Source: Leifsonia sp. 71-9 (GTDB lineage: Bacteria > Actinomycetota > Actinomycetes > Actinomycetales > Microbacteriaceae). From it: a DNA stretch of 64,000 bases. Numbering within the stretch: position 1 is the first letter of the stretch; each line of letters opens with the position of its first letter. The notes under the pieces were generated by a model. It was not told where the DNA came from, did no database searches, and was given only the letters and a program-made list of their open reading frames with translations. Shown one piece after another: positions 11,000 to 13,960 of this stretch. The translations under genes and the position numbers were made by a program. The DNA lies in contig NZ_MKVJ01000001.1 of NCBI RefSeq assembly GCF_001898805.1, forward strand, positions 67,990 through 131,989, in the 5' to 3' direction.

Positions 11000-11751
11000 C
11001 CTCACACGTCGGCGTGAGCGCCCGGAGCGACATCGGGGCGGTACGCCACGTGAACGAGGACGGATTCCTCGCGGAGGACCCGGTCTACGTCGTGGCCGAC
11101 GGCATGGGAGGCCACGCCCGCGGCGACCTGGCCAGCCAGACGGCCGTCGCGAGCCTCGCCCGCACGCTGCAGCCGGGCACCCGGCCGACGCCGGACGAGG
11201 TGATCGCGGCGATCGACGAGGCCAACGCGGCGGTCCGCGCCCTGTCGGGAGTGGACGAGTCCGGTCCCGCGGTGGCGGGTACGACCCTGGCGGGCGTCGT
11301 CCGCGTGCGCGTCCCCGAGCGGGCGGCGGAGCAGTGGATGGTCGTCAACGTCGGCGACTCGCGCGTCTACGCGTGGGACGGCACGACGCTCTCGCAGCTC
11401 ACGGTCGACCACTCCGCCGTGCAGGAGCTCGTCGACGCCGGGCTGATCACCGAGGCGCAGGCGGCCGTCCATCCCGAGCGCAACATCATCACGCGCGCGC
11501 TCGGCGCGGAGGACTTCGTCGACACCGACACCGAGCTGCTCCCCGACGAGGGGCGCCGCGTGTTCGTCATCTGCTCCGACGGCCTGACGCGCGAGCTCAG
11601 CGACAGCCGCATCGCCGCCATCCTCGCCGCGCAGCCCGACGATCCGGCCGGCGCGCTCGTGGAGGCCGCGGTCGAGGCGGGCGGTCACGACAATGTGACG
11701 GTGCTCGTCATCGCCGCTGACGAGGCCGACGCAACGACGGTGATATCCTGA
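10996..11751 (+). CDS. PP2C-family Ser/Thr protein phosphatase (PstP-like, soluble)
   Basis: A 251-aa metal-dependent phosphatase (Mn2+/Mg2+). PP2C motifs are in order: VRHVNEDGF, VVADGMGGHARGD, AGTTLAG, VVNVGDSRVYAW, ITRALG, CSDGLTRELSD and GGHDNVTVLVI. The Asp residues in DGMGG, SDG and HDN coordinate two metals. Unlike PstP it lacks a transmembrane helix and extracellular part. The start overlaps the terC stop (ATGA), placing a manganese-dependent phosphatase in a manganese-controlled operon; whether that link is functional is inference. The leucine leader begins 4 bp after its stop. Confidence 0.9.
   Translation: MTSHVGVSARSDIGAVRHVNEDGFLAEDPVYVVADGMGGHARGDLASQTAVASLARTLQPGTRPTPDEVIAAIDEANAAVRALSGVDESGPAVAGTTLAGVVRVRVPERAAEQWMVVNVGDSRVYAWDGTTLSQLTVDHSAVQELVDAGLITEAQAAVHPERNIITRALGAEDFVDTDTELLPDEGRRVFVICSDGLTRELSDSRIAAILAAQPDDPAGALVEAAVEAGGHDNVTVLVIAADEADATTVIS
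11744..11749 (+). promoter_or_regulatory. Leaderless -10 for the leuL-leuCD transcript
   Basis: TATCCT lies 6 bp before the leader peptide's GTG (11756), inside the last codons of the phosphatase gene. That spacing places the transcript's 5' end at the leader's first codon. Confidence 0.5.
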
Positions 11752-11755
11752 CTCC

Positions 11756-11800
11756 GTGCACGCGGGTCTTCTCCTCCTTAGCCGCCGCGGCGAGTCCTAG
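11756..11800 (+). CDS. leuL: Leucine leader peptide
   Basis: A 14-residue reading frame, GTG start and TAG stop, encoding VHAGLLLLSRRGES. Four consecutive Leu codons (CTT CTC CTC CTT, 11768-11779) make it a leucine sensor: ribosomes stall here when charged Leu-tRNA is scarce. Leu-rich leader peptides before leu genes are known in actinobacteria. It precedes leuC by 70 bp and seems to be translated from the very 5' end of the message. The codon run CTCCTT plus AGC (11774-11782) is exactly complementary to the leuC ribosome-binding site. Confidence 0.85.
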   Translation: MHAGLLLLSRRGES

Positions 11801-11860
11801 TTCTCAGGCCACCCTCGCCGCGGAGTCCGTCGACGGCTGATCCGCACGCAAGCTAAGGAG
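11774..11860 (+). promoter_or_regulatory. leuC attenuator: leader RNA that can mask the leuC ribosome-binding site
   Basis: Outer stem: CTCCTTAGC (11774-11782, Leu codons 3-4 of the leader and the next codon) pairs perfectly over 9 bp with GCTAAGGAG (11852-11860), the leuC Shine-Dalgarno, which lies 10 nt before ATG 11871. Inner stem: CCGCGGCGAG (11785-11794) pairs with CTCGCCGCGG (11814-11823) over 10 bp. CCGTCGACGG (11827-11836) is a further self-palindrome. Ribosomes stalled on the Leu codons would hold the outer strand and free the RBS. I see no terminator-like T-run. Confidence 0.65.
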
Positions 11861-11870
11861 AACGAGCACA

Positions 11871-13361
11871 ATGACGACCGAAACCGATCGCACTCCGCTG
11901 ACCCTCGCCGAGAAGGTCTGGCGCGACCACCTGGTCGTGAAGGGCGAGGACGGCTCGCCCGACCTGATCTACATCGACCTGCACCTCGTGCACGAGGTCA
12001 CCAGCCCCCAGGCCTTCGACGGCCTGCGGATGGCGGGGCGCCCGCTGCGGCGCCCGGACCTCACGATCGCGACCGAGGACCACAACACCCCGACCGTCGG
12101 CATCGACCGGCCGATCGCCGACCTCACCAGCCGCACGCAGATCGAGACGCTGCGACGCAACGCCGAGGAGTTCGGCGTGCGCCTGCACTCGCTGGGCGAC
12201 GTCGAGCAGGGCATCGTCCACGTCGTCGGCCCGCAGCTGGGTCTGACGATGCCGGGCATCACGGTGGTCTGCGGCGACTCCCACACCTCCACCCACGGCG
12301 CGTTCGGCGCCATGGCGTTCGGCATCGGCACCAGCGAGGTCGAGCACGTCATGGCCACGCAGACGCTGCCGCTGAAGCAGTTCAAGACGATGGCGATCAC
12401 GGTGGAGGGCGACCTGCGCCCCGGCGTGACCGCGAAGGACATCATCCTGGCCGTCATCGCGAAGATCGGCACCGGAGGCGGACAGGGCTACGTGCTCGAG
12501 TACCGCGGCAGTGCCATCCGCGCGCTCTCCATGGAGGGCCGGATGACCATCTGCAACATGTCGATCGAGGCGGGCGCGCGCGCCGGCATGGTCGCCCCGG
12601 ACGAGACCACCTACGCGTACCTGAAGGGCCGCCCGCACGCGCCGGAAGGCGCCGACTGGGACGAGGCCGTCGCCTACTGGGACACCCTCGCGACCGACGA
12701 CGACGCCGTGTTCGACGCCGAGGTCTACCTCGACGCCGCCGACATCGAGCCGTTCGTCACCTGGGGGACCAACCCCGGGCAGGGCGTCTCGCTCAGCCAG
12801 TCCGTGCCGGACCCGGCGCAGATCGAGGACGCGAACGCCCGTGCCGCCGCCGAGCGCGCACTGGAGTACATGGACCTCGAGGCCGGGACGCCGATGAAGA
12901 GCATCCCCGTCGACGCCGTCTTCATGGGCTCCTGCACCAACAGCCGCATCGAGGACCTCCGCGCCTTCGCCTCCCTGATCAAGGGCCGCAAAAAGGCCGA
13001 CAACGTGCGCGTCATGGTCGTGCCCGGCAGCGCCCGCGTGCGCATCGAGGCCGAGGCCGAGGGCATCGACAAGATCGTCGAGGAGTTCGGCGCCGAGTGG
13101 CGCTTCGCGGGCTGCTCGATGTGCCTGGGCATGAACCCGGACCAGCTGGCGCCGGGGGAGCGCTGCGCCTCCACCTCGAACCGCAACTTCGAGGGCCGCC
13201 AGGGCAAGCGCGGCCGCACCCACCTGGTCTCCCCGCTCGTCGCGGCGGCGACCGCGATCCGCGGCACCCTGTCCAGTCCCTGGGATTTGGATAACGATGG
13301 CGGCGACACGCCGTCCGGCGACGGCGTGGACACCCGCGCCGGGGAGAAGGTGGGCGCCTGA
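11871..13361 (+). CDS. leuC: 3-isopropylmalate dehydratase, large subunit
   Basis: An aconitase-family [4Fe-4S] enzyme, 496 aa, that with LeuD isomerises 2-isopropylmalate to 3-isopropylmalate, the second step of leucine synthesis. Signatures: [44 protein letters not shown], and [32 protein letters not shown], whose Cys residues bind the cluster. Full length for the bacterial enzyme. The start has a strong AAGGAG, the one that the leader RNA can mask. The stop and the leuD start share one base (TGATG), so LeuC and LeuD are made stoichiometrically. The C-terminus has a short acidic extension ([17 protein letters not shown]). Confidence 0.97.
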
Positions 13362-13960
13362 TGGAGAAGTTCGAGACCGTGACCGGCGTGGCCGTCCCGC
13401 TGCGCCGTTCCAACGTGGACACCGACCAGATCATCCCTGCGGTGTTCCTCAAGCGCGTCACCAAGACCGGCTTCGACGACGCCCTCTTCCACGAGTGGCG
13501 CAAAGACCCGGACTTCATCCTGAACCAGGCTCCGTACCAGGGCGCCTCGGTGCTCGTCGCCGGCGCCGACTTCGGCACGGGGTCGTCGCGCGAGCACGCC
13601 GTCTGGGCGTTGCGCGACTACGGCTTCCGCGTCGTGCTGAGCCCGCGCTTCGCCGACATCTTCCGCGGCAACTCCGGCAAGCAGGGACTGCTCGCCGGGC
13701 AGATCACGGAGGAGGACGCGGAGCGTCTCTGGGCGGCCATCGAGGCTCAGCCGGGAATAGCGGCGACGGTGGATCTGGTTGCCAAGACTGCGACGATCGG
13801 TGAGGTCCAGGTGTCTTTCGACATCGACGATTACACTCGCTGGCGTTTGCTCGAAGGGTTGGACGACATCGCTCTGACCCTGCGCGACGAGGCGCGCATC
13901 TCCGAATACGAAAGCGGCCGCGCTGGTTGGCGGCCCAAGACACTCCCGGTGAAACTTTGA
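13361..13960 (+). CDS. leuD: 3-isopropylmalate dehydratase, small subunit
   Basis: The swivel-domain partner of LeuC, 199 aa, which completes the active site. Recognisable blocks are [38 protein letters not shown] and [44 protein letters not shown], where GSSREHA is the substrate-binding loop. The length is typical. It is translationally coupled to leuC by overlapping stop and start. Its own stop overlaps the probable TTG start of murA by 4 nt, so leucine-controlled transcription or translation could influence the cell-wall gene downstream. Confidence 0.97.

Follow-up and report, generated by a model that had tools for sequence, protein, structure and literature searches.

A leucine-rich leader upstream of leuC

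How might translation of leuC be tied to the supply of leucine at a locus where a short reading frame with a run of leucine codons lies between a phosphatase gene and leuC? In the 64-kb stretch of DNA analysed here (the window, to which all positions refer), the phosphatase gene, whose product matches the Pfam family PP2C_2, ends at 11751. After a gap of 4 bp, a leader ORF (MHAGLLLLSRRGES, 11756–11800, forward strand, as are all features of the locus) starts with a GTG at 11756 and comprises 14 codons before the TAG stop at 11798–11800 (GTG CAC GCG GGT CTT CTC CTC CTT AGC CGC CGC GGC GAG TCC TAG). A sequence-only reading of this DNA had described such a leader, with its four consecutive Leu codons and its distance to the phosphatase gene, and its coordinates were right. 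The Leu codons CTT CTC CTC CTT are codons 5–8 (11768–11779), and codons 5–9 read LLLLS. An extended −10 promoter element (TGATATCCT, 11741–11749), the position of which is conserved in leuC copies, precedes the leader. The putatively controlled gene leuC (11871–13361) encodes the large subunit of 3-isopropylmalate dehydratase (NCBIfam TIGR00170, above cut-off), and leuD (13361–13960), encoding the small subunit (NCBIfam TIGR00171, above cut-off), overlaps the leuC stop codon.

The Shine-Dalgarno (SD) sequence of leuC (GCTAAGGAG, 11852–11860) ends ten bases upstream of the leuC ATG (11871). Its exact complement, CTCCTTAGC, lies within the leader at 11774–11782, and here the letters agree with the earlier reading. 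The claim that the Leu codons are the antisense of the SD applies to Leu codons 7 and 8 and not to the whole run, the rest of the complementary strand being Ser codon 9. These two strands would form the 5′ and 3′ sides of a base stem, which was identified by complementarity, folding and the comparison of own and swapped pairings, and on the SD side also by conservation in the genus. The nested 10-bp stem that the same reading had claimed is present, with its arms at 11785–11794 (CCGCGGCGAG) and 11814–11823 (CTCGCCGCGG), as judged from pairing in 42 sequences. A comparison of own and swapped pairings further pointed to a pseudoknot between TCAGGCC in the loop of this central stem (11804–11810) and GGCTGA downstream of it (11835–11840). 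Folded in silico, the minimum-energy structure contains both the base helix and the 10-bp stem.

Kinship with the LEU element of leuA

DNA searches recovered the leuC upstream region from 28 of 28 genomes of the genus. In 25 of the 28, a second place matched window positions 11765–11838 or slightly more, with 81–86% identity. The gene that follows this second place is leuA; its start is the same in 24 of the 25 genomes, and those copies that were tested gave a protein match to LeuA. Most Actinobacteria were reported by Seliverstov et al. (2005, PMC1262725) to carry a LEU element before leuA. It consists of a leader with a Leu run, a pseudoknot, an alternative hairpin and a base stem in which Leu codons pair with the SD. 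That paper names leuA and a transposase gene as sites, and its genome list includes Leifsonia xyli. Because of the identity to the published-type leuA element in the same genus, we regard the window element as a LEU copy: judged by its sequence, the element before leuC is a paralogue of the LEU element that Actinobacteria carry at leuA, a known kind of element at an additional site. At leuC we found the Leu-run leader, the base stem between Leu run and SD, the pseudoknot and the homology to leuA copies. A Leu-run leader, base stem, pseudoknot and the lack of a terminator are shared with the LEU element of PMC1262725, which differs in that it stands at leuA there and before leuC, as an extra copy, here. 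No report of a leuC copy was found in the open-licence PMC literature, nor, beyond PMC1262725, was a “LEU element” found there in connection with leuA. The suggestion that one codon run could be both sensor and effector is not a novelty, because the LEU element with its pairing of Leu run and SD was published for leuA in 2005 (PMC1262725). What our sequence comparisons add is the location at leuC and Leu codons that track the SD across genera; the LEU element itself is known.

Other leaders resemble this arrangement. In Streptomyces lividans, leuL1 upstream of leuA (PMC8079986) is a Leu-rich leader for which a leaderless transcript has been reported and which has no typical terminator, as here, but it belongs to leuA; its peptide (LLLLSCRGEGL) is similar to the leuA leaders of the genus studied here (LLLLSCRDES). 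The leuA leader of Corynebacterium glutamicum (PMC4046766) likewise has four consecutive Leu codons, but precedes leuA and not leuC. The leaderless polycysteine ORFs of mycobacteria (Canestrari et al. 2020, via PMC9031893 and PMC13236596) are also short leaderless ORFs with a run of the regulated residue, and as attenuators they control a downstream gene at the level of translation, which is the likeness proposed here. They differ in responding to cysteine, in controlling other genes and in being backed by experiment.

Distribution of LEU elements

To build a covariance model (R1), we used 42 sequences, among them the window and its relatives and members of both the leuA and leuC families; these therefore match by construction. 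In the window's own genome R1 recovered both copies, at E-values of 7.5e-18 and 1.2e-17. R1 was searched in genome samples of the family and the order. At least one LEU element was present in 296 of 299 Microbacteriaceae genomes. An element upstream of leuC was detected at 22 of 80 named LeuC loci (E ≤ 9.5e-10; the next match of any kind had E = 0.14). Thirty of the 80 loci are presumably from Microbacteriaceae, and all 22 elements were among these 30, compared with 0 of the 50 other named actinobacterial leuC loci. In a sample that represented each genus by a single genome (LeuC was present in 74 of the 77 searched; the 74 loci and one second gene were examined), the leuC element occurred in 50 of 74 genera (E ≤ 1.3e-8), or 51 of 75 including the genus of the window. 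A marginal match at the right place (L221, E = 0.1) was excluded from this count.

Of the 149 genomes sampled from the order, 110 contained a LEU match. Forty loci from other families (the 20 best and 20 chosen ones) comprised 34 at leuA, four before leuB and two that were chance-like. The four leuB-type loci (L279, L281, L282 and L283) come from one other family and share the order element, 26-aa ORF, leuB. Each of them is a second LEU element, and their leaders mix Leu, Ile and Val (for example MQRQVGLLIASRGEVR). In L279, L281 and L283, leuB was recognised by its translated sequence. The genome of the window contains three elements at E ≤ 0.01, located at leuA1, leuC and a second leuA. The third of these (L170, G000:C20:155897-155977, minus strand) precedes the second leuA and has the leader MLRIESLLLRRHDGV. 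Among 20 weaker copies, from 17 family genomes with at least three matches, 15 were at leuA2, one was at an MFS transporter gene and four were chance-like. The match at the transporter gene (L342, in G313) is weak (E = 8.8e-4) and has the leader MSRVLLLRRRDGA; the gene is possibly one for leucine or branched-chain amino acid transport.

Conservation of the leader and its promoter

Seventy-three leuC copies were compared, 50 from the one-per-genus sample, 22 from the named loci and the one in the window. The motif TANNNT was found 5–8 nt upstream of the leader start in 73 of 73 copies (background 0.004), preceded by TGN in 66. For this promoter count, starts with both the promoter motif and an ORF were preferred; for the following frame count, the ORF condition was dropped. 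With starts set by the promoter motif alone, the frame of the leader relative to the stem was kept in 72 of the 73 copies, and the spacing between leader start and stem in those 72 was 22, 25, 28 or 31 nt, so that the length changes by whole codons. The Leu codon CTT accounted for 144 of 279 leader Leu codons, compared with 5 of 187 in six genes of the window. From the position of the motif, the transcript looks as if it would begin at or near the GTG of the leader, which would make the leader itself leaderless. Two genomes of the genus (L021 and L023; 2.6–2.7 Mb) have a decayed leader with two Leu codons only and without the usual stop, and a DNA search of these two genomes for the leuA element found none.

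Co-variation of the leucine codons with the Shine-Dalgarno sequence

The pairing of the Leu run with the SD goes beyond chance. Only 144 of the 7,776 synonymous LLLLS runs form a 9-bp helix with the SD of the window, a share that falls to 0.006 when weighted by the codon usage of the window. Of 300 synonymous Leu runs drawn by codon usage, none matched the natural run in hiding the SD core in the fold model, where their median unpaired fraction of the SD was 37%. The SD itself varies among the 28 genomes of the genus, with exact GCTAAGGAG in 15, GCTCAAGGAG in nine, GCTAGGAG in two and GCAAGGAG in two.

As a check of its proposal, the sequence-only reading had suggested looking in relatives for co-variation between the Leu run and the SD, and such co-variation was seen across 51 genera once leader starts were corrected. 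Between Leu run and SD, own partners formed a best contiguous helix of −7.08 kcal/mol on average and swapped partners one of −5.91 kcal/mol (0 of 20,000 permutations as extreme), and helix length differed likewise (3 of 20,000). For all 73 copies, the corresponding values were 1 of 20,000 for energy and 2 of 20,000 for length. Eight leader starts were set by hand in the contiguous-helix test; with uncorrected starts, the result was 240 of 20,000. With automatic starts, some of which were wrong, and with one leader segment cut short (L222), duplex energy was not significant for the 51 genera (3,374 of 20,000) and gave 888 of 20,000 for the 73 copies; with corrected starts it reached 53 and 62 of 20,000, respectively. 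Own partners also exceeded swapped ones within clusters of similar elements (3, 3, 9, 17 and 35 of 10,000), and when the eight strongest rows were removed (230 of 10,000). Controls that paired the region upstream of the Leu run with the SD (16,026 of 20,000) or the Leu run with the region above the SD (7,691 of 20,000) showed no such preference, and pairing of the Leu run with leuC codons 2–7 was borderline (1,051 of 20,000). A helix of at least 6 bp between Leu run and SD was present in 41 of the 51 genera, with pairs such as UCCUUCUUCG:CGAAGAAGGA (L184 and L186), CCUUCUCCU:GGGAGAAGG (L215) and UUCUUCUUAG:CUGAGGAGAA (L190), and 10 of the 51 had no 6-bp helix. What these sequence comparisons show is complementarity between the Leu codons and the leuC SD, with the two changing together from genus to genus.

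For the leuA2 copies, the comparison of own and swapped partners gave a trend only (1,215 of 20,000, n = 15). A cross-comparison of leuA and leuC copies in the genus was based on the 16 of 28 leuC copies that could be parsed and on 13 genomes with both copies. The leuC leaders favoured their own SD over the leuA SD in 12 of these 13 genomes; the leuA leaders favoured the leuC SD over their own in 11 and preferred their own in two.

Central stem, pseudoknot and fold

In the 42 sequences, 99.8% of the cells of the central stem are paired and six of its ten pairs are invariant. Compensatory changes occur at two of the ten pairs, a number of pairs matched by 344 of 500 shuffles, whereas the number of cells was matched by none; L053 was left out of alignment A2. 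The pseudoknot strands paired better with their own than with swapped partners (225 of 20,000, n = 49, two of 51 rows being dropped as their right arm was not recognised; controls 12,539 and 15,993). In the window itself the pseudoknot is weak, with four contiguous pairs (GGCC:GGCU), or six with one bulged G, and compensated versions occur elsewhere (ACCGACC:GGUCGGU in L231 and CAGGCA:UGCCUG in L199). The comparisons thus show statistical support for a pseudoknot between the two strands, and a conserved central stem. As an alternative helix, CGGCT (11834–11838) could pair with AGCCG (11780–11784). The motif GGAGT after the central stem (11822–11826) is nearly invariant in the aligned copies and unpaired in the model; being SD-like, it may act as a decoy or serve as a contact site. 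In the leuC leaders of L024, L025 and L028, an insert that by its sequence looks like a small hairpin (TTCCCGTATCTG.TCGGGATGACGG) widens the central-stem loop.

Folding energy was dropped as proof of the element, as the window fold was ordinary (z = −0.65) and 51 of 200 shuffles were at least as stable. In Rfam 15, a tRNA was the sole family to reach its gathering score in the 64-kb window, and none did so at the element. Membership in an Rfam family was rejected, the best match at the element being an antisense one to Actinomyces-1 (17.2 bits versus a gathering score of 39.1). That Actinomyces-1 might represent the LEU element on the wrong strand was likewise rejected: it exceeded the cut-off in three of 149 order genomes, all of one genus. 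Actinomyces-1 has up to nine copies per genome, and none in the ten family genomes of the 149-genome order sample.

Proposed translational attenuation and its alternatives

We propose that 11741–11860 is a paralogous LEU element that would control the translation of leuC. When Leu-tRNA is ample, ribosomes would complete the leader and depart, and the Leu codons would pair with the SD and shut leuC; when Leu-tRNA is scarce, a ribosome stalled on the Leu codons would cover the masking strand and leave the SD free. Stem and pseudoknot would draw the distant strands together, and control would not require a terminator. The fold model is consistent with such a switch. The core of the leuC SD was unpaired at 0.9% in free RNA, at 48–52% with the ribosomal A site at Leu codons 5–8 and at 17% with the ribosome at the stop codon. 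With the ribosome at codons 4 and 9–13, the SD was as open (47–54%) as at the Leu codons, and hence discrimination for leucine would have to come from a longer dwell time. The step from the halted ribosome to leuC translation is one that we infer. No intrinsic terminator was found at 11600–11950, in agreement with the earlier view that none is needed, and transcription attenuation of the trp/ilvB type was rejected as no intrinsic terminator lies between leader and leuC. Translational attenuation is the best-supported mechanism for the LEU element at leuC and probably the correct one. The anatomy behind the proposed switch, a leader in conserved frame and a Leu run able to mask the leuC SD, holds, and the interpretation given by the earlier reading is partly supported.

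In 2005, leader translation and a binding protein were the rival explanations for the LEU element. According to PMC1262725, leader mutations of the Streptomyces coelicolor leuA had some effect that was inconsistent with classical attenuation, and the conclusion given there is that mutations of the Leu codons leave regulation uninfluenced. These Streptomyces data speak against simple sensing through leucine codons. That paper favours a binding protein, based on these mutations and on the phyletic pattern. Such a regulatory protein would bind the LEU element and stabilise or open the fold of pseudoknot and base stem; the leader peptide would be secondary and the Leu codons would serve mainly as the anti-SD strand. 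The near invariance of the GGAGT motif, unpaired as it is in the model, would fit a protein contact. Against this reading stand the frame of the leader, preserved in 72 of 73 leuC copies whose lengths differ in steps of entire codons, the retention of Leu codons where complementarity alone would suffice, and a promoter that in 73 of 73 copies has the position expected of a leaderless leader. We hold control by a binding protein to be unlikely.

Less likely still is an action at the level of transcription, in which untranslated or masked leuC would undergo Rho-dependent termination or mRNA decay, so that RNA would be the regulated quantity. Masked untranslated 5′ regions invite Rho, and PMC1262725 raises Rho for cys leaders in Actinobacteria, but the base stem covers the SD itself and 11600–11950 lacks a site resembling an intrinsic terminator. 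Chance, in that some pairing is always to be expected between Leu codons rich in pyrimidines and an SD rich in purines, is very improbable: swapped pairs do pair, the fold energy is ordinary and the first permutation test, with uncorrected starts, was not significant, but once starts were corrected own partners were better than swapped ones by both statistics, and also within clusters, CTT is strongly preferred in the leaders, and the natural run hid the SD better than all 300 synonymous runs.

Apparent absence of NdgR/LtbR and implications for Microbacteriaceae

In other Actinobacteria, the IclR-type regulator NdgR/LtbR adjoins and regulates leuCD (PMC4340878); it shares its target with the element described here and differs in being a DNA-binding protein instead of an RNA. 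An NdgR-like query from Sinomonas was matched in all 17 genomes that represented 17 other families of the order (E ≤ 4.3e-86), whereas the same query found no ortholog in 35 Microbacteriaceae genomes. Seven of the 35 had any match at E ≤ 1e-15 (best 1.5e-23, 31–38% identity), which we read as other IclR proteins. From these ortholog counts, Microbacteriaceae therefore seem to be without this regulator. An IclR-type operator pattern, drawn by eye and not a curated motif, occurred at 30 of 58 named leuC loci without the element and at 0 of 22 with it. Among the one-per-genus family loci, it occurred at 0 of the 25 that lack the element and at 3 of the 50 that have it. A strict rule by which a locus has either the LEU element or an IclR-type operator was therefore rejected; the pattern is absent from most of the family whatever the status of the element. 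In Microbacteriaceae, the LEU element may occupy the role that NdgR/LtbR has in other Actinobacteria.

Tentatively, and with somewhat less than even confidence, we suggest that after the loss of NdgR/LtbR in Microbacteriaceae, copied leader-peptide RNA modules took over successive genes of the leucine pathway (leuA1, leuA2 and leuC here, leuB in another family and once a transporter gene), the choice of Leu codons being adjusted to the SD that follows; duplicated translational attenuators would thus have replaced a transcription-factor regulon. Our confidence in this reading is lowered by the weak trend for leuA2 and by the leuA leaders of the genus, which do not favour their own SD. Microbacteriaceae offer natural compensatory changes and a direct test of the LEU mechanism. 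If the reading is true, control of one pathway would have passed from a protein to RNA throughout a family.
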